A stretch of 64,000 nucleotides of DNA, taken from the NCBI GenBank assembly GCA_947589415.1, contig CANQBP010000009.1, positions 1 through 64,000 on the forward strand, written 5' to 3'. A program made the translations under genes and the position numbers. The stretch is from an uncultured Clostridia bacterium (GTDB lineage Bacteria > Bacillota > Clostridia > Oscillospirales > Acutalibacteraceae). Below the pieces are notes generated by a model. That model ran no database searches and was not told where the DNA came from. It worked only from the letters and a program-made list of their open reading frames with translations. How positions within the stretch are numbered: the stretch's first letter is position 1; each line of letters starts with the position of its first letter. Below are positions 11,632 through 43,957 of this stretch, piece by piece.

Positions 11632-12120
11632 TCAATTCGCATAGTTGAGATCCGCAAACGTATCTGCTCCGTTAGGTTTAAGCGGGGTCAAACCGCTTTT
11701 GGGAGGATCACCCAACACGGATATATTTCCGTTGGCATCGTACCCGAATTCATCAAGCCTGCTAAGTAAATCACTCAATCCGCCGTATTCCAATGCCCCT
11801 GCAACAGTACATCTTCTTGCGCATCCCATTTTTGTGCTTGTCGGCGCAACCTTATTTGGTATCAGATCACCCGATTGAGCAGCTGTAAAATTATCTCTAT
11901 TGATTTCTCCGCTTTTTACACCCGTATAATACATTTTACAAGCCTGATCCATCGATGCCGCCTCAGTTTCAAGAGCCGCAGACGATGCAGACTGTATTAT
12001 TGAAATAACGGCGGGAATAGCTATCGCAGCAAGAACCGCCAGAATTGCTACAACAACAACAAGCTCGATCAATGTAAAGCCTTTTCTGCTGCCGACCCGA
12101 ATACATCTTTTCCCTGACAT
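11632..12120 (-). CDS. Type IV pilin-like protein (paralogue 1)
   Basis: A 162-residue prepilin with a basic leader, cleavage site RKG-FTLIELVVVVAILAVLAAIAIPA and the conserved Glu at +5, then a hydrophobic helix and a soluble domain. It matches the other pilin at 14867-15403 through the helix and on into QSASSA...ACK..Y.GVKSG.IN, so the two are paralogues. A prepilin peptidase would process it and the protein would join a pilus or pseudopilus. The ATG at 12120 follows a GGGGGGAG site. The C-terminal half has a Cys pair (GCARRC) and a predicted calcium-loop-like DANGN stretch. Confidence 0.85.
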   Translation of the reverse strand: MSGKRCIRVGSRKGFTLIELVVVVAILAVLAAIAIPAVISIIQSASSAALETEAASMDQACKMYYTGVKSGEINRDNFTAAQSGDLIPNKVAPTSTKMGCARRCTVAGALEYGGLSDLLSRLDEFGYDANGNISVLGDPPKSGLTPLKPNGADTFADLNYAN

Positions 12121-12377
12121 ACCATTCTCCCCCCTCTTTTCCTTAACATTCATTCATATATAGGATATATTATAAATATATACTATGTCAATATACTTAA
12201 AAGAATTAAAAAATTTCTTATTTTAGAAATTTAACTCACTTTTTTATATATAATATACAATACTATCATTTACGGTTGGTTTCTATTACTGACATACACT
12301 CCCCTATGCCCAAAAATAGTTATAATTTCTAAATCTCTTTTGCCTTCACATTGTCCCGATAACGTTAGAAAAAATAA
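12121..12377. other. Spacer between pilin gene 1 and Rpn gene 1
   Basis: AT-rich, no gene. A TTGACA on the minus strand near 12192-12197 may belong to the pilin promoter, but the nearest TATAAT is only 11 nt away, so no firm promoter call is made. The long direct repeat containing Rpn begins at 12290. Confidence 0.5.
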
Positions 12378-12406: not shown

Positions 12407-12431
12407 ATAATTAAGAAAGAAGGTGTTTCCG

Positions 12432-13430
12432 ATGCCTGAAACGGAATTAACGGACAGCAGAACAACAAAACACAAAACCAAAGATAGTGTGTTCTCACGT
12501 CTTTTCACTGACCCTAAAAATATCCTGCAACTGTACAAGGATCTCCACCCCGAAGATACCTCAACAACAGTAGATGATATCCAACCGGAAACTTTGGAAA
12601 CGGTGCTTGTCAACGATATATATAACGATTTAGGATTTATAGTGAAAGACAATGAAAACCCCAAGTATATTCTTTTAATTGAGGCACAAAGTATATGGAC
12701 TGAAAACATAACACTTCGTATGCTTTTCTACGTAACCGAAACATATCGGCGTTTTTTGAAAGCCTCAAAGCAGAGCGAACATATATCAAGAAAGGTATAT
12801 CTTCCGAAACCGGAATTTTATGTTGTCTATACGGGTAACAGAGTTATGCCGGAAGAAGTTTCTCTAAATAAGACCTACTTTGACGGAACAGCACCGCTTG
12901 ACATAAAAGTTAAAGTGCTTACCGCTCCCGGAACTAATACGATTTACGGTCAGTATATAGCTTTCAGCAAGATATATGATCAGCAGAGAAAAATTTACAG
13001 CAACACATTGGACTGCATAAAAGAAACAATTGGAATTTGTCTTGAAAAAGGCTTCCTTTCGGATTTTCTCAATGCACACAAACAGGAGGTAGTTACCATG
13101 TTATCCGAATTATTTGATGAAAAAGCTCTCCGTGAGCAGTACGATATTGCTTTAATGACAGAAAGTGAAGCAAGGGGTCGAGCCATCGGTGAAGCGGCAG
13201 GCGAAGCAAGGGGTCGAGCTATCGGTGAAGCGGCAGGCGAAGCAAGGGGTCGAGCTATTGGTGAAGCGGCAGGCGAAGCAAGAGGCAAGGCGAAAGGTGA
13301 GGAGAACGGATTTCTGAAAGCACTTACAGGTCTTGTAAAGAAAGGGATACTCACGGTTTCGCAGGCGGCGGAGGAAGCGAATTTAAGTATTGCGGAGTTT
13401 GAAACAAAAACCGGGATAAAAGCGACATAA
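12432..13430 (+). CDS. Rpn-family PD-(D/E)XK nuclease/transposase-like protein 1 (RpnL-like)
   Basis: A 332-residue protein of the Rpn (recombination-promoting nuclease, YhgA-like) family. The N-terminal nuclease domain has DSVFSRLF, the NDIYNDLGF region and ILLIEAQS, which fits the E-x-Q form of the PD-(D/E)XK site. Rpn proteins cut DNA and, in E. coli, act as toxins in phage defence, held in check by a short C-terminal product (RpnS) made from an internal start. Here an AGGAGGT plus ATG lies at 13084-13100 in frame. After it come three 12-residue repeats (ARGRAIGEAAGE type). ATG at 12432 follows GAAGG. A near-identical second gene lies at 13709. Confidence 0.88.
   Translation: MPETELTDSRTTKHKTKDSVFSRLFTDPKNILQLYKDLHPEDTSTTVDDIQPETLETVLVNDIYNDLGFIVKDNENPKYILLIEAQSIWTENITLRMLFYVTETYRRFLKASKQSEHISRKVYLPKPEFYVVYTGNRVMPEEVSLNKTYFDGTAPLDIKVKVLTAPGTNTIYGQYIAFSKIYDQQRKIYSNTLDCIKETIGICLEKGFLSDFLNAHKQEVVTMLSELFDEKALREQYDIALMTESEARGRAIGEAAGEARGRAIGEAAGEARGRAIGEAAGEARGKAKGEENGFLKALTGLVKKGILTVSQAAEEANLSIAEFETKTGIKAT
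13098..13430 (+). CDS. Internal in-frame product of Rpn gene 1 (RpnS-like, candidate antitoxin)
   Basis: An in-frame ATG within the rpn gene is preceded by a full AGGAGGT Shine-Dalgarno at 13084-13090 with 8-nt spacing, better than the site of the full gene. Translation from it would give a 110-residue protein beginning MLSELFDEKALREQYD, with the Gly-Glu-Ala-Arg-type repeats and the C-terminal helical part (FLKALTGLVKKGILTVSQAAEEA). In E. coli Rpn systems such separately translated C-terminal fragments bind and block the full-length nuclease. That role is carried over by analogy; the internal site is direct sequence evidence. Confidence 0.6.
   Translation: MLSELFDEKALREQYDIALMTESEARGRAIGEAAGEARGRAIGEAAGEARGRAIGEAAGEARGKAKGEENGFLKALTGLVKKGILTVSQAAEEANLSIAEFETKTGIKAT
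13167..13274 (+). repeat. Coding tandem repeat, 3 x 36 bp, in Rpn gene 1
   Basis: Three near-perfect 36-bp units starting GAAGCAAGGGG encode GRAIGEAAGEAR-type blocks, themselves three four-residue sub-units. In copy 2 the same place holds 12-bp units instead. The arrangement is prone to slippage and keeps the frame. Confidence 0.9.
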
Positions 13431-13683: not shown

Positions 13684-13708
13684 ATAATTAAGAAAGAAGG
13701 TGTTTCCG

Positions 13709-14659
13709 ATGCCTGAAACGGAATTAACGGACAGCAGAACAACAAAACACAAAACCAAAGATAGTGTGTTCTCACGTCTTTTCACTGACCCTAAAAATAT
13801 CCTGCAACTGTACAAGGATCTCCACCCCGAAGATACCTCAACAACAGTAGATGATATCCAACCGGAAACTTTGGAAACGGTGCTTGTCAACGATATATAT
13901 AACGATTTAGGATTTATAGTGAAAGACAATGAAAACCCCAAGTATATTCTTTTAATTGAGGCACAAAGTATATGGACTGAAAACATAACACTTCGTATGC
14001 TTTTCTACGTAACCGAAACATATCGGCGTTTTTTGAAAGCCTCAAAGCAGAGCGAACATATATCAAGAAAGGTATATCTTCCGAAACCGGAATTTTATGT
14101 TGTCTATACGGGTAACAGAGTTATGCCGGAAGAAGTTTCTCTAAATAAGACCTACTTTGACGGAACAGCACCGCTTGACATAAAAGTTAAAGTGCTTACC
14201 GCTCCCGGAACTAATACGATTTACGGTCAGTATATAGCTTTCAGCAAGATATATGATCAGCAGAGAAAAATTTACAGCAACACATTGGACTGCATAAAAG
14301 AAACAATTGGAATTTGTCTTGAAAAAGGCTTCCTTTCGGATTTTCTCAATGCACACAAACAGGAGGTAGTTACCATGTTATCCGAATTATTTGATGAAAA
14401 AGCTCTCCGTGAACAATACGATATTGCCCTAATTGCAGAAAGCGAAGCAAGGGGCGAGGCAAGAGGCGAAGCAAGAGGCGAAGCAAGGGGGCGAGCTATC
14501 GGTGAAGCGGCAGGCAAAGCTAAAGGTGAGGAGAACGGATTTCTGAAAGCACTTACAGGGCTTGTAAAGAAAGGGATACTCACGGTTTCGCAGGCGGCGG
14601 AGGAAGCGAATTTAAGTATTGCGGAGTTTGAAACAAAAACCGGGATAAAAGCGACATAA
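13709..14659 (+). CDS. Rpn-family PD-(D/E)XK nuclease/transposase-like protein 2 (RpnL-like)
   Basis: A 316-residue paralogue of the product at 12432-13430. The nuclease domain is identical in the given translations up to the residues just after the internal start (REQYDIAL). Then the copies differ: MTES in copy 1, IAES here. The repeat region here is three four-residue GEAR blocks plus one GRAIGEAAGKAK block. The last 45 residues are again the same. This pattern, identical toxin part with a variable linker in the putative antitoxin part, is what is known for Rpn genes in enterobacteria. It has its own promoter and terminator. Confidence 0.88.
   Translation: MPETELTDSRTTKHKTKDSVFSRLFTDPKNILQLYKDLHPEDTSTTVDDIQPETLETVLVNDIYNDLGFIVKDNENPKYILLIEAQSIWTENITLRMLFYVTETYRRFLKASKQSEHISRKVYLPKPEFYVVYTGNRVMPEEVSLNKTYFDGTAPLDIKVKVLTAPGTNTIYGQYIAFSKIYDQQRKIYSNTLDCIKETIGICLEKGFLSDFLNAHKQEVVTMLSELFDEKALREQYDIALIAESEARGEARGEARGEARGRAIGEAAGKAKGEENGFLKALTGLVKKGILTVSQAAEEANLSIAEFETKTGIKAT
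14375..14659 (+). CDS. Internal in-frame product of Rpn gene 2 (RpnS-like, candidate antitoxin)
   Basis: Same internal AGGAGGT (14361-14367) and ATG (14375) as in copy 1. The product would be 94 residues, 16 shorter than that of copy 1 because of fewer repeat units. If these fragments dimerise through the repeat helix, as known for RpnS of E. coli, the different lengths could reduce cross-binding. That is inference. Confidence 0.6.
   Translation: MLSELFDEKALREQYDIALIAESEARGEARGEARGEARGRAIGEAAGKAKGEENGFLKALTGLVKKGILTVSQAAEEANLSIAEFETKTGIKAT
14444..14515 (+). repeat. Coding tandem repeat of 12-bp units in Rpn gene 2
   Basis: Units of the form GAAGCAAGAGGC (encoding Glu-Ala-Arg-Gly) run three to four times, then one 36-bp block like those of copy 1. 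Confidence 0.85.
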
Positions 14660-14866: not shown

Positions 14867-15403
14867 TTAGTTGTAAAGACCTGCTGTACCACCTACGTTA
14901 CCGAGTGTTGTTGTACCTGCGAGCTGAGCGCTCTCACCAGAGTGAGGATCAGTACCGGTGCCGTCCCAATAATAAATAGTACCCATTGTAAGGTTACCTG
15001 ATGAACTTTTAGCAACTGTAATATAATGGAAGTCAGTGTAGTCAAGGTTTGTACCGTTATACTTCTGAACATCATCAACTTTTACAGCGTTAGCAGCCGT
15101 CTGCTTAGCTGTATTTGAAGCACCCTTAGCTGCTGCAAAACCCACCGGAGTATTATCAGCGTTTTTACTCTCCGTGTTGTTGATAGAACCGGACTTAACA
15201 CCTGCATATACGTTCTTGCAAGCACTGTTGAGTGTTGAAGCATCGGAGTCACCTGCCGAGCTTGAAGCGCTCTGGATAATGTTTACAACTGCCGGAATTG
15301 CGATAGCTGCGAGAATTGCAAGGATTGCAATAACAACTACGAGTTCAACGAGTGTGAAGCCTTTTTTGCTCTGTTTAGCGAGCAGTTTCTGTTGGAGTGT
15401 CAT
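14867..15403 (-). CDS. Type IV pilin-like protein (paralogue 2, likely major pilin)
   Basis: A 178-residue prepilin with leader MTLQQKLLAKQSKKG, cleavage before FTLVELVVVIAILAILAAIAIPA and Glu at +5. The body is rich in Ala, Thr, Asn and Gly, with two N-terminal-half similarities to paralogue 1 (SACKNVYAGVKSGSIN). A consensus promoter, a strong terminator and a long leader suggest high, single-gene expression, as for a major pilin. No assembly ATPase, platform protein or peptidase gene is in the window. It is separated from paralogue 1 by the two Rpn units. Confidence 0.87.
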   Translation of the reverse strand: MTLQQKLLAKQSKKGFTLVELVVVIAILAILAAIAIPAVVNIIQSASSSAGDSDASTLNSACKNVYAGVKSGSINNTESKNADNTPVGFAAAKGASNTAKQTAANAVKVDDVQKYNGTNLDYTDFHYITVAKSSSGNLTMGTIYYWDGTGTDPHSGESAQLAGTTTLGNVGGTAGLYN

Positions 15404-25237: not shown

Positions 25238-27286
25238 TTACTCAACCTGATATACCTTGCCGTTTTCTGCAGCAAGACCGTCACTCTTCGGATACTTATT
25301 ACCGCCGTCATCGTCATTAAATATCAATCTGGCATCTTGGATAGTACCCGACTTGATAGTATAGCTGTATGTTCCGTCAGAATTTTTCGTCATGACCTCA
25401 CCCGGCCAATCGGCGATCTTGTCACTTCCGCCTTCCTGATATACATACAAATAAATGTTATCAGACCAATCATCAGGCTTTTTAAAAGTGACAACAATGT
25501 CCGTACCTTCTACCGAGTAAGATGAACCTTCCGTAACCTTGAGTCCTTCTTTCTGTTTTCCGGGGTACTGATTATCTCCGTCATTAAAAATAATCAAAGC
25601 ATCTTTAATATCCTTTGGTACATCATAGGAATATGAACCGCTGCCGTCATTATTCATCTCTACCCCCGGCCATTTTGCATTTTCATCTCCGGAACTGTTA
25701 TAAACATACGCATACACCTTATCTCCCCAGCTGTCAGGTTTCTTAAACGACACACCGGAGCTTGTCTTGGTTTCGGAGCCTGATGCCGAAACGCTGCTTC
25801 CCGAAGAAGATCCCTGCGCTTGTTGTTCGCCGCCGTTACCGCTCATAACAAGCACAACTATTACCACTATTGCTATAATAAGCACGGCAACCACCACTAT
25901 ACCGGCAACAGGCATCTTTTTATTTGCTGTCGTCTGCTGAAGTTGTATGGACGGATTGTTGTTGAGCGGCCCATTCATAGGAATGTCAACATCTACCGGA
26001 GGTCTGCTGTTTTGCTCAAAGTTTTTCTTAAAATTCTCTATGAAATCATCTCCGTCCTCCGGTTGTTCTGTTTTGGGAGATGTTGTCCATTTATTATTCT
26101 CAAATTGATTTGATGTTCCGACAGAATTTGCAGACCATTGACCTGCATTATTTGAATCGACCCTCTGCTGTACGGGTTGTGCAGGAGTAGCCGCTGCTTC
26201 CGTTGACCATTGTCTTTTCGGTTTTGACTCGGTCGGCTGTACGGGTTGTGCAGGAGTAGCCGCTGCTTCCGTTGACCATTGTCTTTTCGGTTTCGACTCG
26301 GTCGGCTGTACGGGTTGTGCGGGAGTCGGTGCTGTTTCCGTTGACCATTGTCTTTTCGGCTTGGACTCGGTCGGCTGTACGGGTTGTGCAGGAGTAGGCG
26401 CTGTTTCCGTTGACCATTGTCTTTTCGGTTTCGACTCGGTCGGCTGTACGGGTTGTGCGGGAGTAGGCGCTGCTTCCGTTGACCATTGTCTTTTCGGTTT
26501 TGACTCGGTCGGCTGTACGGGTTGTGCGGGAGTCGGCGCTGCTTCCGTTGACCTCTGCCTTTGCGGACGTTCAACCGATACCCTGTCAGCCGTCTGAACC
26601 TTCTCCACATTTATCTTTACACCCGAATGACTTGTTTCAGCCTTAGAAATATCCGAACTTTTCATATCGGGAAGTCTGCCCTCAACCTTTTCCTGTTCAA
26701 TAGGAGTGAGCTTGACTGCGGGAGTCTTACGAATTTGCTCAATTGTTATTTCTCTTTCCGGCTGCATAGGAGGTAGTGTACTCGTCAGCTCCTCGGATTT
26801 TATCGGAGTCAGCTCTACTGCCGGCGTATTTGCAATTTTAGACAAAGGAACAGGTCTTTCTATCTCTATCGGCGGCAAAGTTCTTCCGCCGCTCTCCGAC
26901 TGAATTTCGGGAAGTTCGTCCGTATTCCCGCCAAACGATTGCTGTTCATTCTTAACAGCCTGCGGTACATTTTCTGTCCTTGCAGGAGGTTCGGCAGCCG
27001 CCTTTTTTAAAGAGGGGGCAGTCTGCTGTATCGGGGCGGACTGCTGCACCGGAGCATTTTGCTGCGCCGGAGTTGTCTGTTGTATTTGTGCGGGTCTTTC
27101 CTGTACATCGGCAACAGCCGCTTTATCAGCGGTATCTTCTGCCGATGCGGTTTCGTTCTCCAGCCTTTCCGCTTCCATTTCCTCCGCACTCTTATTTTCC
27201 TTGACATTAAATCCGCAGAAAGGACAATTCTCACCGTTATTAACTATTCTGCTGCCGCATCCGGGACAATTTATAAATAATGCCAT
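25238..27286 (-). CDS. Membrane protein with zinc ribbon, repeat linker and two CBM26-like starch-binding modules
   Basis: A 682-residue protein. An N-terminal zinc ribbon (CPGCGSRI...CPFCGF) is followed by about 420 residues of Pro/Gln/Thr-rich low-complexity chain, with six 23-residue repeats (KPKRQWSTEAAPTPAQPVQPTES type, about residues 240-373). Then come one transmembrane helix (about 455-477) and two C-terminal modules of about 85 residues each. The modules carry WGDKVYAYVYN..WPGVEM...YSYDVP..ALIIFNDGDNQYPG and its twin, a pattern of family 26 starch-binding modules. The topology puts the binding modules outside and the ribbon inside. ATG at 27286 follows GGGGAGA. Confidence 0.8.
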   Translation of the reverse strand: MALFINCPGCGSRIVNNGENCPFCGFNVKENKSAEEMEAERLENETASAEDTADKAAVADVQERPAQIQQTTPAQQNAPVQQSAPIQQTAPSLKKAAAEPPARTENVPQAVKNEQQSFGGNTDELPEIQSESGGRTLPPIEIERPVPLSKIANTPAVELTPIKSEELTSTLPPMQPEREITIEQIRKTPAVKLTPIEQEKVEGRLPDMKSSDISKAETSHSGVKINVEKVQTADRVSVERPQRQRSTEAAPTPAQPVQPTESKPKRQWSTEAAPTPAQPVQPTESKPKRQWSTETAPTPAQPVQPTESKPKRQWSTETAPTPAQPVQPTESKPKRQWSTEAAATPAQPVQPTESKPKRQWSTEAAATPAQPVQQRVDSNNAGQWSANSVGTSNQFENNKWTTSPKTEQPEDGDDFIENFKKNFEQNSRPPVDVDIPMNGPLNNNPSIQLQQTTANKKMPVAGIVVVAVLIIAIVVIVVLVMSGNGGEQQAQGSSSGSSVSASGSETKTSSGVSFKKPDSWGDKVYAYVYNSSGDENAKWPGVEMNNDGSGSYSYDVPKDIKDALIIFNDGDNQYPGKQKEGLKVTEGSSYSVEGTDIVVTFKKPDDWSDNIYLYVYQEGGSDKIADWPGEVMTKNSDGTYSYTIKSGTIQDARLIFNDDDGGNKYPKSDGLAAENGKVYQVE
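26168..26567 (-). repeat. Coding tandem repeat, six 69-bp units
   Basis: Units start at 26168, 26237, 26306, 26375, 26444 and 26513, each 69 bp, with few differences; the last one (N-terminal in the protein) is partly diverged. They encode the 23-residue Pro/Gln linker repeat. Confidence 0.95.
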
Positions 27287-27412
27287 ACCTATCTCCCCTA
27301 AGTCAATTTTATATAATCGCACACTTGCGCAATCTCTTATCCATATAACCAATTATACAATATTTTTATCAAACAGTCAATATTTTTGAAAAAAACAGCA
27401 ATACTGTAATAT

Positions 27413-33521: not shown

Positions 33522-34787
33522 CTATTCTTTCATATCATCATCGTTTTCCTCATCTTCTTCATCGTCCTTATCTATCCAACGTGAAACAAGGAAATACAAG
33601 ATACCGACCACTACCACAACAATTGCCGATATAACAATAACTATAATAATTCTCTTTTGTTTTCCGTCCGTTTCATCAGAAACGCTGTCGGTCACTTCGC
33701 TGTCCGTATTTTGACTGTACTGCGAACTGATTTCATTATCTGAAGAATCTGTCCTATCCCCGCTTACAGTACCGTTCGGACTTGAAACACCGTTTTGCCG
33801 ACTGCCTTCTGAGTCGCTCATATCATTTGATGTCCCGTCGGAATTTTGTCCGCCGCCTTGTGAACCTTCCACTTCGGAGTTAGTACTCTCGGATACCGAA
33901 CCTCCTGCCGATGATGTACCTGTACCATGATTACTGCTGTCGCCGTTTTGACCGTTACCGCCGCCATTACTCTCGGTCTTACTGTTGTCGGGATTAGCGT
34001 TACTATTTGTGCCGCTTGACTGATTTCCTCCGCCGCCGCTTACCTCTCGGTTACTGCTTTCCCCACTCCCGTTTCCGCCGGAGCTTTGTGGACTGCTCGA
34101 ACCGTTATTGTTGCCGTTGTTACCGCCGCTGGTGTTATTGCCGCCGCTACCGTTGTTACCGCTGCCACCGTTGTTTCCGGTGCCGTCGTCATCACCGATG
34201 CTATTGTCATTACCGTTACTGCTGTTTTGCTCCGTCGGTCTATTCTGCGGCTCACGTGATGAGTTGCCCGAAGCTGACGACTCCTCCTCACTGTATTCGG
34301 AGAAAATATTCCTTGAGTTTATACTGTACTTTAAGTCAGCGGTCGTATTATCCGAAATCAGCTTTGAATCTTCTCCGAAAAGCTGAAATTCCTTTGCAAA
34401 AACATCATCAGAGGAAAGTCTGTCCGACTTTAGCTTAAAACTTATCTCCGCAAGCTCGGTATTACCCTTGACAACTCCGTCGGAATTATAGAAATTTATC
34501 TTTATAGTCCCGTTATTTTCGGAATCTATATTTACAACCTTAGCTTTTGACGAACCCTTATGTACGGAAACAAATTTCAGCACTCCCGTATCATAACCTA
34601 TTGATATAGAGCCGGAAGACGCTTTACCGGGAGTGAAAGAAACGACTGCGGTCACGTTTCTGTCCGTATCAATTATTTCGTTAATGCCGAATGTCGGCAT
34701 TTCTTCAGCGGAAACTAACAAACTCCCGCAAAAAGATATAACAAACAGCATGACCAAAAATATGTATATACCTTTTCTTTGCTTCAA
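33522..34787 (-). CDS. Membrane-anchored cohesin-like protein
   Basis: A 421-residue protein: signal peptide (FLVMLFVISFCGSLLVSA), one cohesin-like beta-sandwich (about residues 30-150; VVSFTPGKASSGSISIGYDTGVLKFVSVHKGS...GTIKINFYNSDGVVKGNTELAEISFKLKSD), a Gly/Asn/Ser-rich linker of about 220 residues, one membrane helix (about 377-398) and an acidic tail (DKDDEEDEENDDDMKE). Cohesins bind dockerins on enzymes to build cellulosomes and amylosomes. A single cohesin held by a helix instead of a sortase signal would be a cell-surface anchor. The match is by pattern only. Confidence 0.7.
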   Translation of the reverse strand: MKQRKGIYIFLVMLFVISFCGSLLVSAEEMPTFGINEIIDTDRNVTAVVSFTPGKASSGSISIGYDTGVLKFVSVHKGSSKAKVVNIDSENNGTIKINFYNSDGVVKGNTELAEISFKLKSDRLSSDDVFAKEFQLFGEDSKLISDNTTADLKYSINSRNIFSEYSEEESSASGNSSREPQNRPTEQNSSNGNDNSIGDDDGTGNNGGSGNNGSGGNNTSGGNNGNNNGSSSPQSSGGNGSGESSNREVSGGGGNQSSGTNSNANPDNSKTESNGGGNGQNGDSSNHGTGTSSAGGSVSESTNSEVEGSQGGGQNSDGTSNDMSDSEGSRQNGVSSPNGTVSGDRTDSSDNEISSQYSQNTDSEVTDSVSDETDGKQKRIIIVIVISAIVVVVVGILYFLVSRWIDKDDEEDEENDDDMKE

Positions 34788-36541: not shown

Positions 36542-39500
36542 TCAGCTGTTTGAATATACAACTTCCGGTTTAAACCTATCACCTGATGTACCGGCTAAGC
36601 CGCCGTCGTTGTCATAGCGGTTTTTAATTGTAACATACTCCATACTTTCCCAGTACTCCTCGTCAAACAGATCTGCAATATATCCTGTCTGACCTGCCGG
36701 TCGGGTAATTTCGTATGCACCCTCACGGATCGTAAACTGATGCAAGTCACCGTATGAGTCATAGTACTCAATATTCATATCCGTTTGGAATATGACGTCC
36801 ATCTTGTCATCATCGTCATACGTACCGATTTGGAAGTGCTTGCCGTAGTTACTTGTACCTACGAGCTTGCCGGACAACGCAAATGTAAGCTCATCGGCAT
36901 TGAATGTTACATTGTTATATACATTCAAATTAGTGTTGCCCTCCCAGCGGAAATACATCTTACCCGTTGTCATATACTTCATAAGTCTGTTTTCGGCAAA
37001 TGCACCGTCATTAACCGTGAGATTTACGGTCTTATTCGTTGCGTGAGCACCTGCCGTTATCGTCAGATCACTTCCGCTCTTAGTTACCCAGCCGCTGAGT
37101 GCGGTTGCATCAACTATATCACTCGGATCTCCGTCAAGCGGAGCAACATATTCACCGTAATTGATGGGATCTTCAAAGAAGTTCTTTGCTACCGTGCTGT
37201 ACAAATTCAGTCGCGGCTTCCAATTGCTTCCGCCCGTATCGGTATATATAAACGGGCCTACCTGACCGCTGTTAATTTCAGCTTGGGTATTTATGAAATT
37301 CTCATCAAACGTGTACGCACCGGCTTTTATCTTGTAGCTGTTACTCGGATCATAAGTGTTTACAGTCACATCATACTTGAAATATAGTGTTATCGGCTTA
37401 TATTTAAGTCCTTTAGCCTCTGCTTCGGTGTTTGCAACGGGTATTGCTGAACTTACCGATGCACGAACTGCCGCCATATCGAACAAATAAGCATCTGATG
37501 CAGAAGTCTGCTGCAGCACTGATGCAGAAATCTGACGATAATCCGTTGCAGTATTCTGTACCCAATATGATGTATCCGGCGTGGTCGCTCCGTCACCGGG
37601 CTGATGCACAAATACCCATGCGCCGTCAAGAAGATCTATTTTATCCTTCAAAGCACATTCCTTAGTCGTACCGTCGGGATATCTTATAACAAACTGAAGA
37701 TCGTACAGATAATTTTCACCGGCTGCGGGCTGAACGAAGATTATCGGACAGCCTTCGGTATTCTTATACTCCACGGTAGACTCACGTGTCATACCGCTTT
37801 CGTCGAGCTTGTATCTAAGGGCAAATTCAGCGCCGCGGGTTGCTGCTTTCTTCGTATCGAAGAATATAATCGGTATTCTGTCGTCTGTTGAAATGGTGAT
37901 GTTATCAACGGCAGAATTAAGTTTATCGGTTTGTCTGACTATATCATTTACCGTTGTCGTATCACTTTCATAGAGATTTTCTGCTTGAAGCAGTAATCTT
38001 TCAATTTCGGCAACAGCGGTGCTGTCAAAGATATCCGGTTGACCGTTACGGAGATATTCGGGATAGTTATGTCCGGGAACATAAGCTCTTGCGTTACTCA
38101 TAGCCACATAGAGATCCGAATATGCCGAAACCCACCTGTTGACATCATTGATATTTGCACTATATCCGTTACTGTTTATAACACCGTCCGTGAAATACGG
38201 GTCAATCAAATTCTTTTTGATTGCACCTGCATACTTGTAGGAACCTCTTCCTCCGTTACCGCCGAGGTTCTTAGGATTACCCTTTGCATCATACTGAATA
38301 GCAAGCACCTTGCCGTAGTAGAGCGAATGTGCCCCGTACAACGCTCTCTCAAGTGCAACCTTTGGCGGAACATAGTTATCCCAACCGCCTGCTCCCGAAT
38401 TCATATTGGTATCGAAGAGTATGAGGTCGTCGCCTTGGAGTGATGTTCTGTACACTTTCATTGTTCCGTCATCAAAGTACGCCGAGAATGTAATGAATGG
38501 TGTTTGTGCAGGTATCGTTGCACAAAGATACGTTGTAGTTTCCGTGTCATCGGTCATAAGATACTGTCCGCCTGCTCCTACACCGTTTGCCTGTATGGAA
38601 ACCGACTGCAAATTCGGAAGTTTTTTGAAGTATATGGTCTGATTGTCTTCAACCTGTACCGTTTCGGGATCTATGGTACAGAGCGACATATTTGTAAACA
38701 CACTGTTTCTCACGGTAATGTCCTTCATAACAAGCCATACATTTCCGTAAACGTCCTGAATTTGCTGTGTAAAGGTCGAATCCGTAGCATAACCGTCATC
38801 ATACCAATTTTTACCCGGTGTTACAGATGATCTTCTCAGACCCTGAATTTGGAATGAATATTCATCGGACTGATCAACAGGTATCTTACGTTCGTACCAG
38901 TCAAATATCAACGTCATTGTCGTATCACCGACACGTCCCATTGATTCACGGTTGCCGCCTGAACCGCCGAACAGATTAGTTCCCAGTACCCATGCACCGT
39001 TTTCGGATTTGAATGCACTATCGGGAAGCAACTCACGATTACCGTTAAGATAGAAACATCCGTATGAAGAATTGTATGACATATTTGTCAGCTTGATTTT
39101 TGATCCGCCAACATAAGGCATTCTCAAATCCGTTACCATAGTACCTCTGTCAATTGCGGGAACCATCGTTGTGTAAGACGGTGCAACATCACTACGTTTT
39201 GCTCTATAATGGTAGGCATAAGCTCCACCAACACTTGTACCATAACTATAGTTAGTTACTTTTCCCGGCGCATAGGGCCAAATGCTCACTCTGTGACCTG
39301 CTCTGTCAGGACATTTATTACCTGTGCTTGCATGGTAATCATAAATATAAACTCCTCCAACAACCTCTGCACCACCCATTACAGTAGTTACCGTAGAACT
39401 GCTACGGTAATCTGTATAACCGTTTCTGCTGAGAACTTCATCATCTATTAAGGTAAACAAACAGCAGCCACCGGTTTGGTTTTCATTACCATAATTGCAC

Positions 39501-42500
39501 TCAAACGGTCTGCAGAATGAATCATGAACCAGGGGAGCACTCGCACGATTGCTTAAGCAAGACTTATCCCAGTTTGTAGGATACGAACACGGATGAGTAT
39601 CTTCAAAGCACTGGGTGTCCGCCATATCGAGATAAATCTGTCCGCCGTCATTTTGTCCGTCGTTTGCTTGTCCTGCCGGTGTACCTCCGACCTTTTCGGC
39701 TCCGGCGTTCTTAGTAATGATACAACCGTAAGCTGTCGCACTTACAACTACGTAATAACAATCGTCTGACTCATCAACACGAATTGCCTGTGTTCCGGGC
39801 CATGCTCCGTTGAGGGATCGGTCATACCTGTCCCAAACATAAACCCACGGCTGCGCTCCATTAAGTGTTCTGTCGGCATCGATCCAAATTACCGTTTTAC
39901 CGAGGTTAATTCTTGGAATACCTCCAAGACCGTCCTGGTTAAAATAGTCAAATGTTACAGTCTTAGTAGTAAATCCGTTTGCCGCAGTTACCACCGGCAC
40001 CGGTGCAGATACCGCTGCGGGTGCTGTAAGAAGCTCACTTGCAAAAGTTGATGATACAACACCGCTAAGCTCTCCTACGCTGTTAAATGAAACATTACTT
40101 CCGGTTGAAACGTTGGTCGAATATTTCGGATAAATATTCTTTGCGGATATAAGCTCTGATGAAACATTCTTAAATGTATATGCGGAATATGCAGCCGATA
40201 TTTGATTGTCAGACACATAAGTAACGTTCAATTCGCCTGCTCTCGGCACATTCATAGATGATGTCACAATTTCCTGCTCTCCGTCATCGCCGTACCTTCT
40301 GTAAACGCTGAAGGCGAACTCGCCGCTGTACTGTGCGGTGTACACATACTGCATACCGTCAAAATAAGCCTCTACCGGTTCGGAATTACCTATCTTTATA
40401 CCTACAAATGTCGTATCATCACCGCTTATTGTGGTACTGTTATAGGGAATATTTATCTTAACGGTAGGTCTGTCGGTTTTGTTTGTCTCATCGGGTTTTA
40501 ATACATACTGACCTATCTGTGAGGCAAAGGAATTTGTGTAGAGATATTCGCTGTCATCAATAGAATAATACCTTACCTGAACATTCTGTCCTGCCTCATA
40601 AACATATCTTGCAACATTGTACGGACCTTCTTTGATTGTGTTGTAATCAGTCTTTTCTCCGTCAGCTCCCGTTACTTCCACAACCGCATTCTCTGCTCCG
40701 GATATATAAAGCTCGGAGAGTTTTGCCCTCTTCATCTCAAGTATATCCTTCTCCGCATTTCCTTGGCTTGTAACAACAAGTCCTGCTAAATCAAATACAA
40801 TGTTACCGTCCTGCATCTCACTTACGGGAACATTTTGTTCGGTAGTAAATACTACTGTCTTAGTTCCTATAATTTGATGTTTTCCGGTCGACGGGTCAAT
40901 TTCGCCGAGTTCATTCTGAACCGTCGTAAGCACAAATCTTGCGCTGTTAAAACTATCATAATCCACATCTGTGTACGAAAGTCCCTGTGCAACTATTTTG
41001 TTGAAGGAACTGCCTACATTGTAGTTTCCGACAACTGTGTCGTCCTTATACAGCTGCATGGTAAGTCCGGTAACCTCATAGGGAGTTTCGGCAGTTTTTT
41101 CGGCACCGTTTATGCTGCCCTCATGATATGTCCGCAGAACCGTTCCTACTGCAAGACCCTCAACCCATATCCTTACCTTATTCTCTGAAAGGAGCTTGTC
41201 TGTTGCTGTCGAATCGCCGTTAGTTGTTCCGCTGCCCGGCTTGTACACATAAAACTCGTCATATGCTTTCTTGAGTTTATCATATACTGCATCAACTTTT
41301 TCCTGTGTTGCACTTATGTCCGTGATCATAGAATTTGCTTCATTAACTGCATCTTGAAGATTTTTATAGGTTTCATCCGTGCAGTCAACCTTCAAATCGA
41401 TCATCGGCTGTGCCAAAGCTACCAAATCCACTAACGGTCTTGTATCAACATTAACGTCCGGATTAGCAAGAACATCTTCTATTGCCTTATTCAGATCTTC
41501 CGCCGCCTTGTCGATATCCGACTGTGTCGGGCCTAAATTATCCGCATTTTCAGCCACTGTCAAAGCTGCTGCAAGTGCATCTCTGTATTCTCTCTTATAT
41601 CTATCATTGTTCAAATACGGCTGTGCTTTCTTAATTGCATCATCAAGTACACTCTTATCGAGCTTGGAAGAAACTACACTTGTATATTCCGCTTTCAGCT
41701 TGTCAATAAGTTCGATAACTTCCGAAGAATTATAAACCTTGCCGCTTGGGGAATTAAGTATTTCTCCACTATCAATCAAAGCCTTTGCGTTTACATATTC
41801 GCCCATTTCAAAGAGGGCAAACTGTACAACATCATACACAACCTTGTTGTGCTGCTCTGTTATAATGCTTGTACATTCATTAACGAGCTTTTCATACTCA
41901 CTATAAAGTTCGTTGCTGACTACCTTTGTTCTGAGTGCCTTTACAGCATCATCAATTTCCTGTACCTTTTTCTCATATACGTCATCTCCGTGAACTACCG
42001 TATCATTCAGCAAATCAACTGCCTCATTAAGAACATTCTGAAGTGCATCATAGCTTGCATCTTCATAGTCATCACGAAGATATGACGAACGTGCCTCGTT
42101 TACCTTTTCGGTAAGAATTCTTTTGGCTGTCGTTGATACGCCGCTGCTCTCATAATCCAAATAGGGAGCAACTGCCGAACCTATCATACTTGATTTTACA
42201 CGGACTGTCGTGTATGCCTTATAGTCAAGACCTATCAGGTCACACGCCTTTCTCTCCGTAAGTCGGCAGGCAATCGAATTGGGTCTTGCCGGGTCTACAA
42301 CGACAAATGCTTCATTTTCCGTATTAGGTGTAACCGACACGGTTTCGGTTACGGGATTTCCGGATTTATCATAGTAGGTTAATACCATATCGAAGTTCTT
42401 GGCACATTCGATATTTGCTACCCACCAACCGCAGCCTTCGTAAAGCATCTTCTGCTTTCCTGCATCATCAATTCCGTAGAAGTAATCTAGGCTGCCGTTA

Positions 42501-43957
42501 CCTCTTCCGGCAGAACCGGCTTTTATGGTGCTGACAAAGTCAAGCTGCCAGATACTTTCGAGCGTACTGTTGCTGAACATATCTTCATCAACGTTGCCGT
42601 TATTAAATCTTCTAATATTGGTGTCACGCTGTGTAGTATCGAATATAGAAACACCGTTTACGGTTATACTGTTTATAACCGGTGCTTTTGTAGGCGCATT
42701 GTTTGCCTCATCGGGATCATCGGGATCTCCCAAGCCTTTTACCTTGAAATGTACCGTTGTCTTTTTATTTTTTACATAGACCAACATTCTGTCGTCAAGT
42801 GTTTCAAGACCGTTCCATGCATAGCCGTCCTTATAAAGAAGACCGGGCTGTAAAAACTCAAAATAAATGTTCTTGTCATCACTAAAAAGATACCAAAGGT
42901 GGAACATTTCACTTGTCTGGGTTTCCGGACGCCACTCGCCGTTTCTTCCGTTAAGTACCTGACCTTTCTTTGTAATGATCAAGTTGAAATAATTAACGTT
43001 ATCGCTGTCATAATAGTATGTGGCATTATACCAACCCCCGCTGCCGCTTGAAGCAAAAGATGTTGCAGGACCGTTTCGGGGATCGTCAGGATTACTCTCG
43101 ATTACGTTCCAAGGCTCCGGAGAAAATACGTGCGGATTGTTAGGATCGCTGTTATCATGGTTCTCCGTAAAAGCATCGTAAATCGTTTTGGAAGATTTGA
43201 CTATATTTCCCGAACTATCCAGAGTGTAATAAGTATACGGACCTAATACATTTCGTGAGCTGTTATAGAGGTTATTGTTATTTTTATAATAAGTTTCCAA
43301 TCCGTAACAGTTGTCGGTAAGACTGTACAACCCCGTCACATCTTTATATGTCCACAAATAATAGAAAGGCGTCCAGTTCTCTCCGGGATACTGTTTTACG
43401 TGCATATTGATGGCATCCTGCTGCGGATAGTTCAGTACGTCCGTTGTCATATCAACATCCGTCAAGGTCATCCTGCTCTTACTTGTTTTTTTGTTAAGAG
43501 TGTAGGTGCCTGCAATACTCACCGACTTTGATTTCTTTCCAAAAGCATCCGTCGACCTGGAATATGCAACCAGCTTGAGAAGTGAATCTCCTGTCGTAGA
43601 CGGAATATAATTTGCCTGAACATACGTCGTATAGTCCTGAGCATCAGCTTCGGTCGCCACGAAATCTGCGCCGCCTTCGACTGTACCTCCGTCCTTGTCA
43701 AGCATGACCATGTACTCATCACTCACCGTGGTGATGTCCGGTACACTATCGGTATTGCAGTAGTATGTATACGCATACTCAAGCGCACTTCTTGCATTCA
43801 AATACGCCTGACGGCTGTTCACGGTACTACTCGTATTGGTAATACTCGTAAGAGCAATTCCGATGAGTGACACGGAAAGGATAATAAGTACACAAGTCAC
43901 AGCCATTGCCACAGGCAACGTTATACCCTGCTTGCTTTTGAGCTTCTTTGATAACAT
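36542..43957 (-). CDS. Giant pilin-like surface protein with FIVAR repeats and starch-binding-like module
   Basis: A 2471-residue protein. The N terminus is prepilin-like: KKLKSKQG-ITLPVAMAVTCVLIILSVSLIGIAL, with a Gly before the hydrophobic helix but Val, not Glu, at +5, as in tip-type minor (pseudo)pilins. Residues about 617-905 form helical FIVAR-type repeats (TEKVNEARSSY..., DAIKKAQPYLNNDRY...); about 1355-1440 resemble a CBM26 module (NGAQPWVYVWDRYD..NGAWPG). A Cys-rich segment follows, and beta-rich domains of no clear family fill the rest. No C-terminal anchor is seen. It may be a pilus-tip adhesin for starch or plant particles; this is inferred. It has its own promoter and terminator. 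Confidence 0.75.
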   Translation of the reverse strand: MLSKKLKSKQGITLPVAMAVTCVLIILSVSLIGIALTSITNTSSTVNSRQAYLNARSALEYAYTYYCNTDSVPDITTVSDEYMVMLDKDGGTVEGGADFVATEADAQDYTTYVQANYIPSTTGDSLLKLVAYSRSTDAFGKKSKSVSIAGTYTLNKKTSKSRMTLTDVDMTTDVLNYPQQDAINMHVKQYPGENWTPFYYLWTYKDVTGLYSLTDNCYGLETYYKNNNNLYNSSRNVLGPYTYYTLDSSGNIVKSSKTIYDAFTENHDNSDPNNPHVFSPEPWNVIESNPDDPRNGPATSFASSGSGGWYNATYYYDSDNVNYFNLIITKKGQVLNGRNGEWRPETQTSEMFHLWYLFSDDKNIYFEFLQPGLLYKDGYAWNGLETLDDRMLVYVKNKKTTVHFKVKGLGDPDDPDEANNAPTKAPVINSITVNGVSIFDTTQRDTNIRRFNNGNVDEDMFSNSTLESIWQLDFVSTIKAGSAGRGNGSLDYFYGIDDAGKQKMLYEGCGWWVANIECAKNFDMVLTYYDKSGNPVTETVSVTPNTENEAFVVVDPARPNSIACRLTERKACDLIGLDYKAYTTVRVKSSMIGSAVAPYLDYESSGVSTTAKRILTEKVNEARSSYLRDDYEDASYDALQNVLNEAVDLLNDTVVHGDDVYEKKVQEIDDAVKALRTKVVSNELYSEYEKLVNECTSIITEQHNKVVYDVVQFALFEMGEYVNAKALIDSGEILNSPSGKVYNSSEVIELIDKLKAEYTSVVSSKLDKSVLDDAIKKAQPYLNNDRYKREYRDALAAALTVAENADNLGPTQSDIDKAAEDLNKAIEDVLANPDVNVDTRPLVDLVALAQPMIDLKVDCTDETYKNLQDAVNEANSMITDISATQEKVDAVYDKLKKAYDEFYVYKPGSGTTNGDSTATDKLLSENKVRIWVEGLAVGTVLRTYHEGSINGAEKTAETPYEVTGLTMQLYKDDTVVGNYNVGSSFNKIVAQGLSYTDVDYDSFNSARFVLTTVQNELGEIDPSTGKHQIIGTKTVVFTTEQNVPVSEMQDGNIVFDLAGLVVTSQGNAEKDILEMKRAKLSELYISGAENAVVEVTGADGEKTDYNTIKEGPYNVARYVYEAGQNVQVRYYSIDDSEYLYTNSFASQIGQYVLKPDETNKTDRPTVKINIPYNSTTISGDDTTFVGIKIGNSEPVEAYFDGMQYVYTAQYSGEFAFSVYRRYGDDGEQEIVTSSMNVPRAGELNVTYVSDNQISAAYSAYTFKNVSSELISAKNIYPKYSTNVSTGSNVSFNSVGELSGVVSSTFASELLTAPAAVSAPVPVVTAANGFTTKTVTFDYFNQDGLGGIPRINLGKTVIWIDADRTLNGAQPWVYVWDRYDRSLNGAWPGTQAIRVDESDDCYYVVVSATAYGCIITKNAGAEKVGGTPAGQANDGQNDGGQIYLDMADTQCFEDTHPCSYPTNWDKSCLSNRASAPLVHDSFCRPFECNYGNENQTGGCCLFTLIDDEVLSRNGYTDYRSSSTVTTVMGGAEVVGGVYIYDYHASTGNKCPDRAGHRVSIWPYAPGKVTNYSYGTSVGGAYAYHYRAKRSDVAPSYTTMVPAIDRGTMVTDLRMPYVGGSKIKLTNMSYNSSYGCFYLNGNRELLPDSAFKSENGAWVLGTNLFGGSGGNRESMGRVGDTTMTLIFDWYERKIPVDQSDEYSFQIQGLRRSSVTPGKNWYDDGYATDSTFTQQIQDVYGNVWLVMKDITVRNSVFTNMSLCTIDPETVQVEDNQTIYFKKLPNLQSVSIQANGVGAGGQYLMTDDTETTTYLCATIPAQTPFITFSAYFDDGTMKVYRTSLQGDDLILFDTNMNSGAGGWDNYVPPKVALERALYGAHSLYYGKVLAIQYDAKGNPKNLGGNGGRGSYKYAGAIKKNLIDPYFTDGVINSNGYSANINDVNRWVSAYSDLYVAMSNARAYVPGHNYPEYLRNGQPDIFDSTAVAEIERLLLQAENLYESDTTTVNDIVRQTDKLNSAVDNITISTDDRIPIIFFDTKKAATRGAEFALRYKLDESGMTRESTVEYKNTEGCPIIFVQPAAGENYLYDLQFVIRYPDGTTKECALKDKIDLLDGAWVFVHQPGDGATTPDTSYWVQNTATDYRQISASVLQQTSASDAYLFDMAAVRASVSSAIPVANTEAEAKGLKYKPITLYFKYDVTVNTYDPSNSYKIKAGAYTFDENFINTQAEINSGQVGPFIYTDTGGSNWKPRLNLYSTVAKNFFEDPINYGEYVAPLDGDPSDIVDATALSGWVTKSGSDLTITAGAHATNKTVNLTVNDGAFAENRLMKYMTTGKMYFRWEGNTNLNVYNNVTFNADELTFALSGKLVGTSNYGKHFQIGTYDDDDKMDVIFQTDMNIEYYDSYGDLHQFTIREGAYEITRPAGQTGYIADLFDEEYWESMEYVTIKNRYDNDGGLAGTSGDRFKPEVVYSNS

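Follow-up and report, generated by a model that had tools for sequence, protein, structure and literature searches.

We read the 2471-residue protein encoded on the minus strand of the window, a 64,000-nucleotide stretch of DNA from an uncultured Clostridia bacterium, as a modular K-type tip pilin whose outer modules catch starch (alpha-glucan), and we give this reading a probability of about 0.68. The form of its N terminus, the operon place of the gene in relatives and the presence of pilus machinery are read from sequence, and its pilin- and CBM-like folds from structure models; cleavage, location at the tip, the starch ligand and retraction are only inferred. A first-pass annotation had already proposed a pilus-tip starch adhesin. 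This proposal is now supported by the operon place in 27 of 44 homologues, the predicted pilin module, the occurrence of PilB, PilT, PilC and PilD, the CBM26 modules of relatives, and matches of the protein's predicted folds to CBM25/26/41.

The gene is a single frame of 2471 codons with no internal stops, and AGGAAAGGAAG about 10 nt upstream of its ATG provides a good ribosome-binding site. The genes that flank it in the window are unrelated, leaving it isolated. Its product begins with MLSKKLKSKQG and continues with ITLPVAMAVTCVLIILSV, that is, a short basic leader ending in Gly11, then a hydrophobic helix that carries Val rather than Glu at +5. The set of 44 distinct full-length proteins that we compared (the window protein counted in; 1919-2903 aa, median about 2400) shares this class III signal peptide form of short basic leader, Gly and hydrophobic helix without exception, with Gly at -1 in 44/44, Pro at +4 in 42/44 and Glu at +5 in 0/44. 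The pilin-like N terminus noted at first pass (basic leader, Gly, helix, no Glu5) is therefore not a chance pattern, and ordinary signal peptides, which would have refuted that proposal, were seen in none of the homologues. Pfam N_methyl finds no match in the giant, with its Val at +5, and no family member passes the PilX_N cut-off, the homologue of Pseudoruminococcus massiliensis alone matching below it (20.5 against 25.5 bits, E 4.6e-4). K subunits lack Glu5 and are proposed, from work on GspK, to cap the filament together with I and J (PMC8179133); the missing Glu5 is expected of K-type pilins and does not exclude K-type identity. The protein was also said to be over ten times the length of a pilin, which holds if the genome's own pilins of 173-234 aa are the yardstick and fails for its K-type counterparts, 534-994 aa long in related bacteria. 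An ordinary secreted or sortase-anchored protein is ruled out by the wrong form of the leader and the absence of a C-terminal anchor motif, while the dozens of intact homologues exclude both a likeness by chance and an artefact of MAG assembly.

The giant belongs to a conserved family and is not a one-off. The giant was matched in 24 of the 25 searched genomes of the genus, source genome included, in many as a single long frame; of 15 genomes from elsewhere in the order, only one showed weak matches, and these were confined to the FIVAR region. A scan of 85,000 genomes returned 56 loci with giant homologues (L060-L115) and five with ordinary-size kin. The giant loci lie mainly in rumen and rabbit MAGs labelled uncultured Ruminococcus or Clostridia bacterium, and the bacteria that encode full-length giants live in the rumen, the caecum and the human gut. 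The sole cultured species among them is P. massiliensis, which encodes a 1919 aa homologue within its pilus locus. Pilus-like filaments and the degradation of retrograded starch have been reported for this species in a paper that names PilX in its pilus cluster and does not mention the giant in its text (PMC8726730).

The place of the gene in relatives ties it to the pilus. In 27/44 cases it is preceded by a pair of Glu5 minor pilins and starts 18-45 nt downstream of the second one (24 from a pattern search, with L088, L095 and L107 added where the pattern had missed the second pilin). The first of the paired pilins is GspI- or PilV-like in some species, and pilB-pilT-pilC lies upstream of both wherever the contig is long enough. 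These 27 meet the definition of a K-type pilin, namely no Glu5 and a gene beside I-/J-like minor pilins; the window's locus does not. The gene of the window belongs to the other 17, which are detached from the operon and form a single tree group with support 100, surrounded by operon-type kin. One fully supported group of detached genes next to operon-type kin points to a single relocation, and by this sequence-based reckoning the window's gene position is derived and arose once. Ordinary-size K-type pilins of 534-994 aa, which share the giant's N terminus and sit beside two Glu5 pilins, hold the corresponding place in related bacteria of the order, suggesting that an ancestral tip pilin was enlarged. 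Judged by sequence, then, the giant is a K-type (GspK/PilX-like) pilin of a type IV pilus, grown from a normal tip pilin. A second giant, a K-type pilin of 1997 aa (L132:3744-9737, minus strand), is encoded in another genus of the source organism's own family; it has no Pfam domain and is followed, not preceded, by two Glu5 pilins. In a different family, a frame of 1606 codons is of uncertain start.

The source genome has the machinery that such a pilin would need on a different contig, C20, where one operon encodes PilD, PilB, PilT and PilC (Pfam PF01478, PF00437 twice and PF00482) and two Glu5 minor pilins. No K-type gene is present in that operon, and a profile of the giant's N terminus retrieved from the source genome the giant and no other protein of its kind. 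Since the giant gene stands alone, apart from the pilus operon, co-regulation is not given. Two candidate major pilins are encoded in the window (Table 1), the one at 14867..15403 closely resembling the first pilin of P. massiliensis (L111:7245-7763). Between these two pilin genes lies a near-identical gene pair on the plus strand (12423-13430 and 13700-14659), apparently a recent duplication, whose members differ in the count of the GEARGRAIGEAA repeat. By appearance only, they look like Rpn-type transposases or nucleases.

Table 1. Features of the giant gene and candidate major pilins, in window coordinates
Feature	Position	Strand	Basis
Giant K-type minor pilin gene, 2471 aa	36542-43957	minus	ORF and 44 distinct full-length homologues
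Class III (prepilin) leader, residues 1-11, last Gly11	43925..43957	minus	Gly -1 in 44/44, Glu5 absent in 44/44
Predicted pilin module, residues 1-155	43493..43957	minus	AlphaFold; alignment with 534-581 aa K-type pilins of Caproiciproducens-type bacteria
Predicted beta module 1, residues 178-412, the best conserved of the modules	42722..43426	minus	AlphaFold; 6b15 Z 7.8 over 181-579
Predicted beta module 2, residues 425-582, YEGCGWWVANI motif	42212..42685	minus	AlphaFold and fold match
FIVAR-type three-helix bundles, residues 605-905, stalk	41243..42145	minus	Pfam; 7jrl, 7puk Z 11.8
Predicted beta modules, residues 925-1160, last CBM25-like	40478..41185	minus	AlphaFold; 2laa Z 8.2 over 1075-1161
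Degenerate CBM26, residues 1355-1425	39683..39895	minus	Custom profile 15.9 bits; hhalign 98.6%; Pfam CBM26 of relatives
Cys-rich stretch, residues 1450-1499, 7 Cys	39461..39610	minus	Low model confidence
Predicted beta module, residues 1770-1864, CBM26-like fold	38366..38650	minus	2c3h Z 7.9
Predicted beta module, residues 2025-2136, CBM41/CBM25-like fold	37550..37885	minus	2j71 Z 9.4; 7rft Z 7.2; 2lab
C-terminal beta-rich domain, residues 2257-2445, many short strands	36623..37189	minus	High model confidence
Type IV pilin GFTLIELVVV, candidate major pilin	11632..12153	minus	N_methyl 1.6e-8
Type IV pilin GFTLVELVVV, candidate major pilin	14867..15403	minus	N_methyl 1.4e-9

AlphaFold models were made of residues 1-1195 (mean pLDDT 78) and 1272-2471 (mean pLDDT 73). 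The N-terminal module is predicted to follow the pilin plan, with a 55-residue helix (13-67) and strands at 81-85, 111-118, 126-136 and 143-153. Further along the first model, beta modules span 181-406, 427-565 and 927-1153, with helical bundles at 610-902. Pilin structures are absent from the fold matches of the N-terminal half, which is no evidence against a pilin module given that other domains dominate so long a model. Beta module 1 contains many invariant Trp and Tyr residues, and the nearest fold for its region, 6b15, is the tandem CBM26 of Eubacterium rectale Amy13K. FIVAR in the window copy comprises two stretches, the best at about 771-827, that score 20.4-25.8 bits and stay under the Pfam cut-off of 29.2; the earlier assignment of these repeats falls short of that measure in the window copy and draws support from Pfam matches in 16/43 relatives (best 8e-7). 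Fold matches include Ebh/Embp. A Pfam match to PIN_12 (E 2.3e-4) was dismissed, being limited to a single member, below cut-off and within the helical FIVAR stretch. Large parts of the chain from residue 1272 to about 1690 are poorly predicted, with beta modules beyond and helices at 1865-2020. The Cys-rich part remarked on at first pass was borne out by a count of its Cys residues (Table 1) and is kept in the closest relatives only. For the C-terminal half Foldseek ranked 2lab (CBM25) first with a probability of 1.00, and the module at 2025-2136 matched CBM41 (2j71) and, at a lower Z score, Sas20 domain 1 of Ruminococcus bromii (7rft). No fold was identified for the C-terminal domain. The main nearest solved folds are alpha-glucan modules (CBM25, 26 and 41) and FIVAR-type bundles. 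Z scores of 7-9 fall in a range where common arrangements also arise; what lends these model-based matches weight is that alpha-glucan modules top the list. With its FIVAR and CBM26-type modules the protein meets the definition of a modular pilin, a pilin module joined to a domain that is not pilus-specific.

Sequence evidence for starch binding centers on CBM26. Pfam detects this module in the C-terminal halves of 12/40 relatives (E up to 0.01; best 1.3e-20), often in two or three copies, and has no match to it in the window copy. A custom profile of other CBM26s, from which the window protein was excluded, scored 15.9 bits at residues 1369-1419, where 1000 shuffled proteins reached at most 9.2, and these residues align with the place of real CBM26s in relatives. 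We quote this score since a second, 'no-giant' profile may include giant fragments. Using the family alignment, which contains relatives with intact CBM26, hhalign placed CBM26 at 1355-1425 with 98.6% and below 6% elsewhere. The CBM26-like module first noted from the sequence alone is backed by profile score and aligned place, in a degenerate form without a Pfam match. Beta module 1 shows a CBM26 trace in 2 of 20 members (best E 0.01). Compared with PDB sequences, profiles of the modules at 178-412 and 2020-2140 gave nothing useful, and that of the whole C-terminal half gave no match; the modules outside 1355-1425 rest on predicted fold, with little sequence support. Nor does the P. massiliensis homologue have a CBM26 match, so that starch can be named only tentatively as a ligand common to the family. 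Mucin binding by the giant finds no support here.

The middle of the giant varies, clear CBM26 copies ranging from 0 to 3 across species (L098, L108, L101), as though modules were gained and lost here in the manner of a ligand-binding cassette. More widely, CBM26 proteins are found in 31/31 genomes of the genus, and the source genome has 10 matches to CBM26 and also encodes cohesins. One cohesin (PF00963, E 2.3e-8) forms the N terminus of a membrane protein encoded 1.8 kb past the end of the giant gene (33522-34787, minus strand), which continues into a long linker rich in Ser, Gly and Asn, ends with a transmembrane helix and is a candidate cell-surface anchor of an amylosome-like complex. Another protein of the window (25238-27352, minus strand) starts with a zinc ribbon, repeats a 23-residue unit (KRQWSTEAAPTPAQPVQPTESKP) about six times, has one transmembrane helix and ends in two CBM26 modules (E 1.8e-37). 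We take it for a second, membrane-tethered starch binder, for which a cytoplasmic zinc ribbon is odd.

We propose that PilD cuts off the 11-residue leader and that the giant, with the two I/J-like Glu5 minor pilins encoded on the other contig, would make up the cap that serves as starting point for building the type IV pilus. Without Glu5 and with so bulky a body, the giant would be held at the tip. As such bulk can hardly fit within the filament, its remaining ~2300 residues would project from there as an arm of starch-binding-type beta-sandwich modules spaced by FIVAR helical bundles, catching granules of starch (alpha-glucan) at some distance from the cell. Retraction powered by PilT might then draw granule and cell together, after which cell-surface amylases would act. 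Counting against this model, a body of ~270 kDa (estimated from length) that passes Sec and the wall with a pilus would be unusual. We hold it an even bet that a gut and rumen lineage of starch degraders has turned a K-type tip pilin into a ~270-kDa, starch-catching multi-CBM arm, perhaps in the largest pilin family, with a retractile pilus for substrate capture beside or instead of the amylosome.

A K-type tip pilin could have another ligand, whether mucin or a host glycan, the plant cell wall, the wall polysaccharide of other bacteria, or a protein. The CBM26 of the window copy is degenerate and most other modules are CBM-like by fold alone, the P. massiliensis homologue without CBM26 comes from a species that adheres to enterocytes (PMC8726730), and FIVAR is known from host-binding adhesins such as those behind the Ebh/Embp fold matches. 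Even so, we judge this unlikely, if not to be dismissed, because alpha-glucan modules are the best fold matches in two separate regions, CBM26 remains intact in the 12 relatives noted above, and the CBM26 repertoire is genus-wide and starch-rich.

Doubts about the pilus itself carry less weight. At least in the detached clade, the helix could act as a signal anchor that is never cleaved and so tether the protein to the membrane as a surface adhesin: cleavage data are lacking, and 17/44 genes lie away from the pilus operon. Yet all 17 detached copies keep Gly -1 and no Glu5, a pilin-like sheet is conserved behind the helix, and the source genome has both partner minor pilins and no other K-type pilin, which makes a location outside the pilus improbable. 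It is more improbable still that the giant is a type II-like pseudopilin in a monoderm, where amylases would be exported or displayed by a short pseudopilus with the giant as its cap. A GspK-like N terminus and the gene order I-J-K would suit such a system; the second, PilT-type ATPase of the operon, the pili of the cultured relative (PMC8726730) and the two candidate major pilins of the window would not.

Returning to a starch-catching tip pilin, we found no description of starch adhesins at a pilus tip or of type IV pilins of giant size in the literature, open-access papers only, and no reliable literature support for tapirins as a parallel. A 2021 survey of modular pilins listed 264 architectures, the largest of 860 residues, and searched with the IPR012902 motif (PMC8179133); the giants have no N_methyl match and would be missed by such a survey. 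The first-pass remark that no such design was familiar from starch degraders needs qualifying, as modular adhesive pilins are known (PMC8179133, PMC9934059); what sets the giant apart is its size, its K-type place and its starch-type modules. As far as open-access literature shows, the giant is an extreme variant of known modular pilins, new in these three respects. If our reading is true, type IV pili would be tied to resistant-starch degradation, and the known size range of modular pilins would extend about threefold. P. massiliensis is cultured, piliated and starch-degrading (PMC8726730), and the idea is therefore directly testable.

Of the known systems, PilB and PilC of Streptococcus sanguinis likewise graft adhesive modules onto a pilin module in a monoderm, PilC being lectin-bearing and glycan-binding, and a tip complex has been proposed (PMC8179133, PMC9934059). 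At ~50 kDa these pilins carry one or two modules beyond the pilin part, and PilB has Glu5, whereas the giant lacks Glu5, has a K-type place and reaches ~270 kDa with about ten starch-binding/FIVAR-type modules. GspK/PilX of the HIJK complex resembles the giant in its missing Glu5, its gene beside I-/J-like pilins, its added bulk and its proposed role as tip cap, but the bulk of GspK is a single alpha-domain inside the pilin sheet (PMC8179133) and that of the giant a long C-terminal chain of carbohydrate-binding-type modules. In a related gut lineage, adherence to starch through multiple modules is known from Sas20 and the amylosome of R. bromii, and Sas20 domain 1 is among the giant's fold matches; Sas20, however, is a starch-binding protein assembled in the amylosome and no pilin (PMC9112005). 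Type IV pili have been implicated in the polysaccharide attachment of a ruminococcus, Ruminococcus albus, in a system of a Pil-family protein and cellulose where a giant tip module is not described (reviewed in PMC4300822). Finally, diderm PilC/PilY1 is a very large, tip-presented adhesin with variable modules. PilY1 does not belong to the pilins, and monoderms lack it (PMC9934059), whereas the giant would be adhesin and pilin in one and so the monoderm equivalent of this large tip adhesin.
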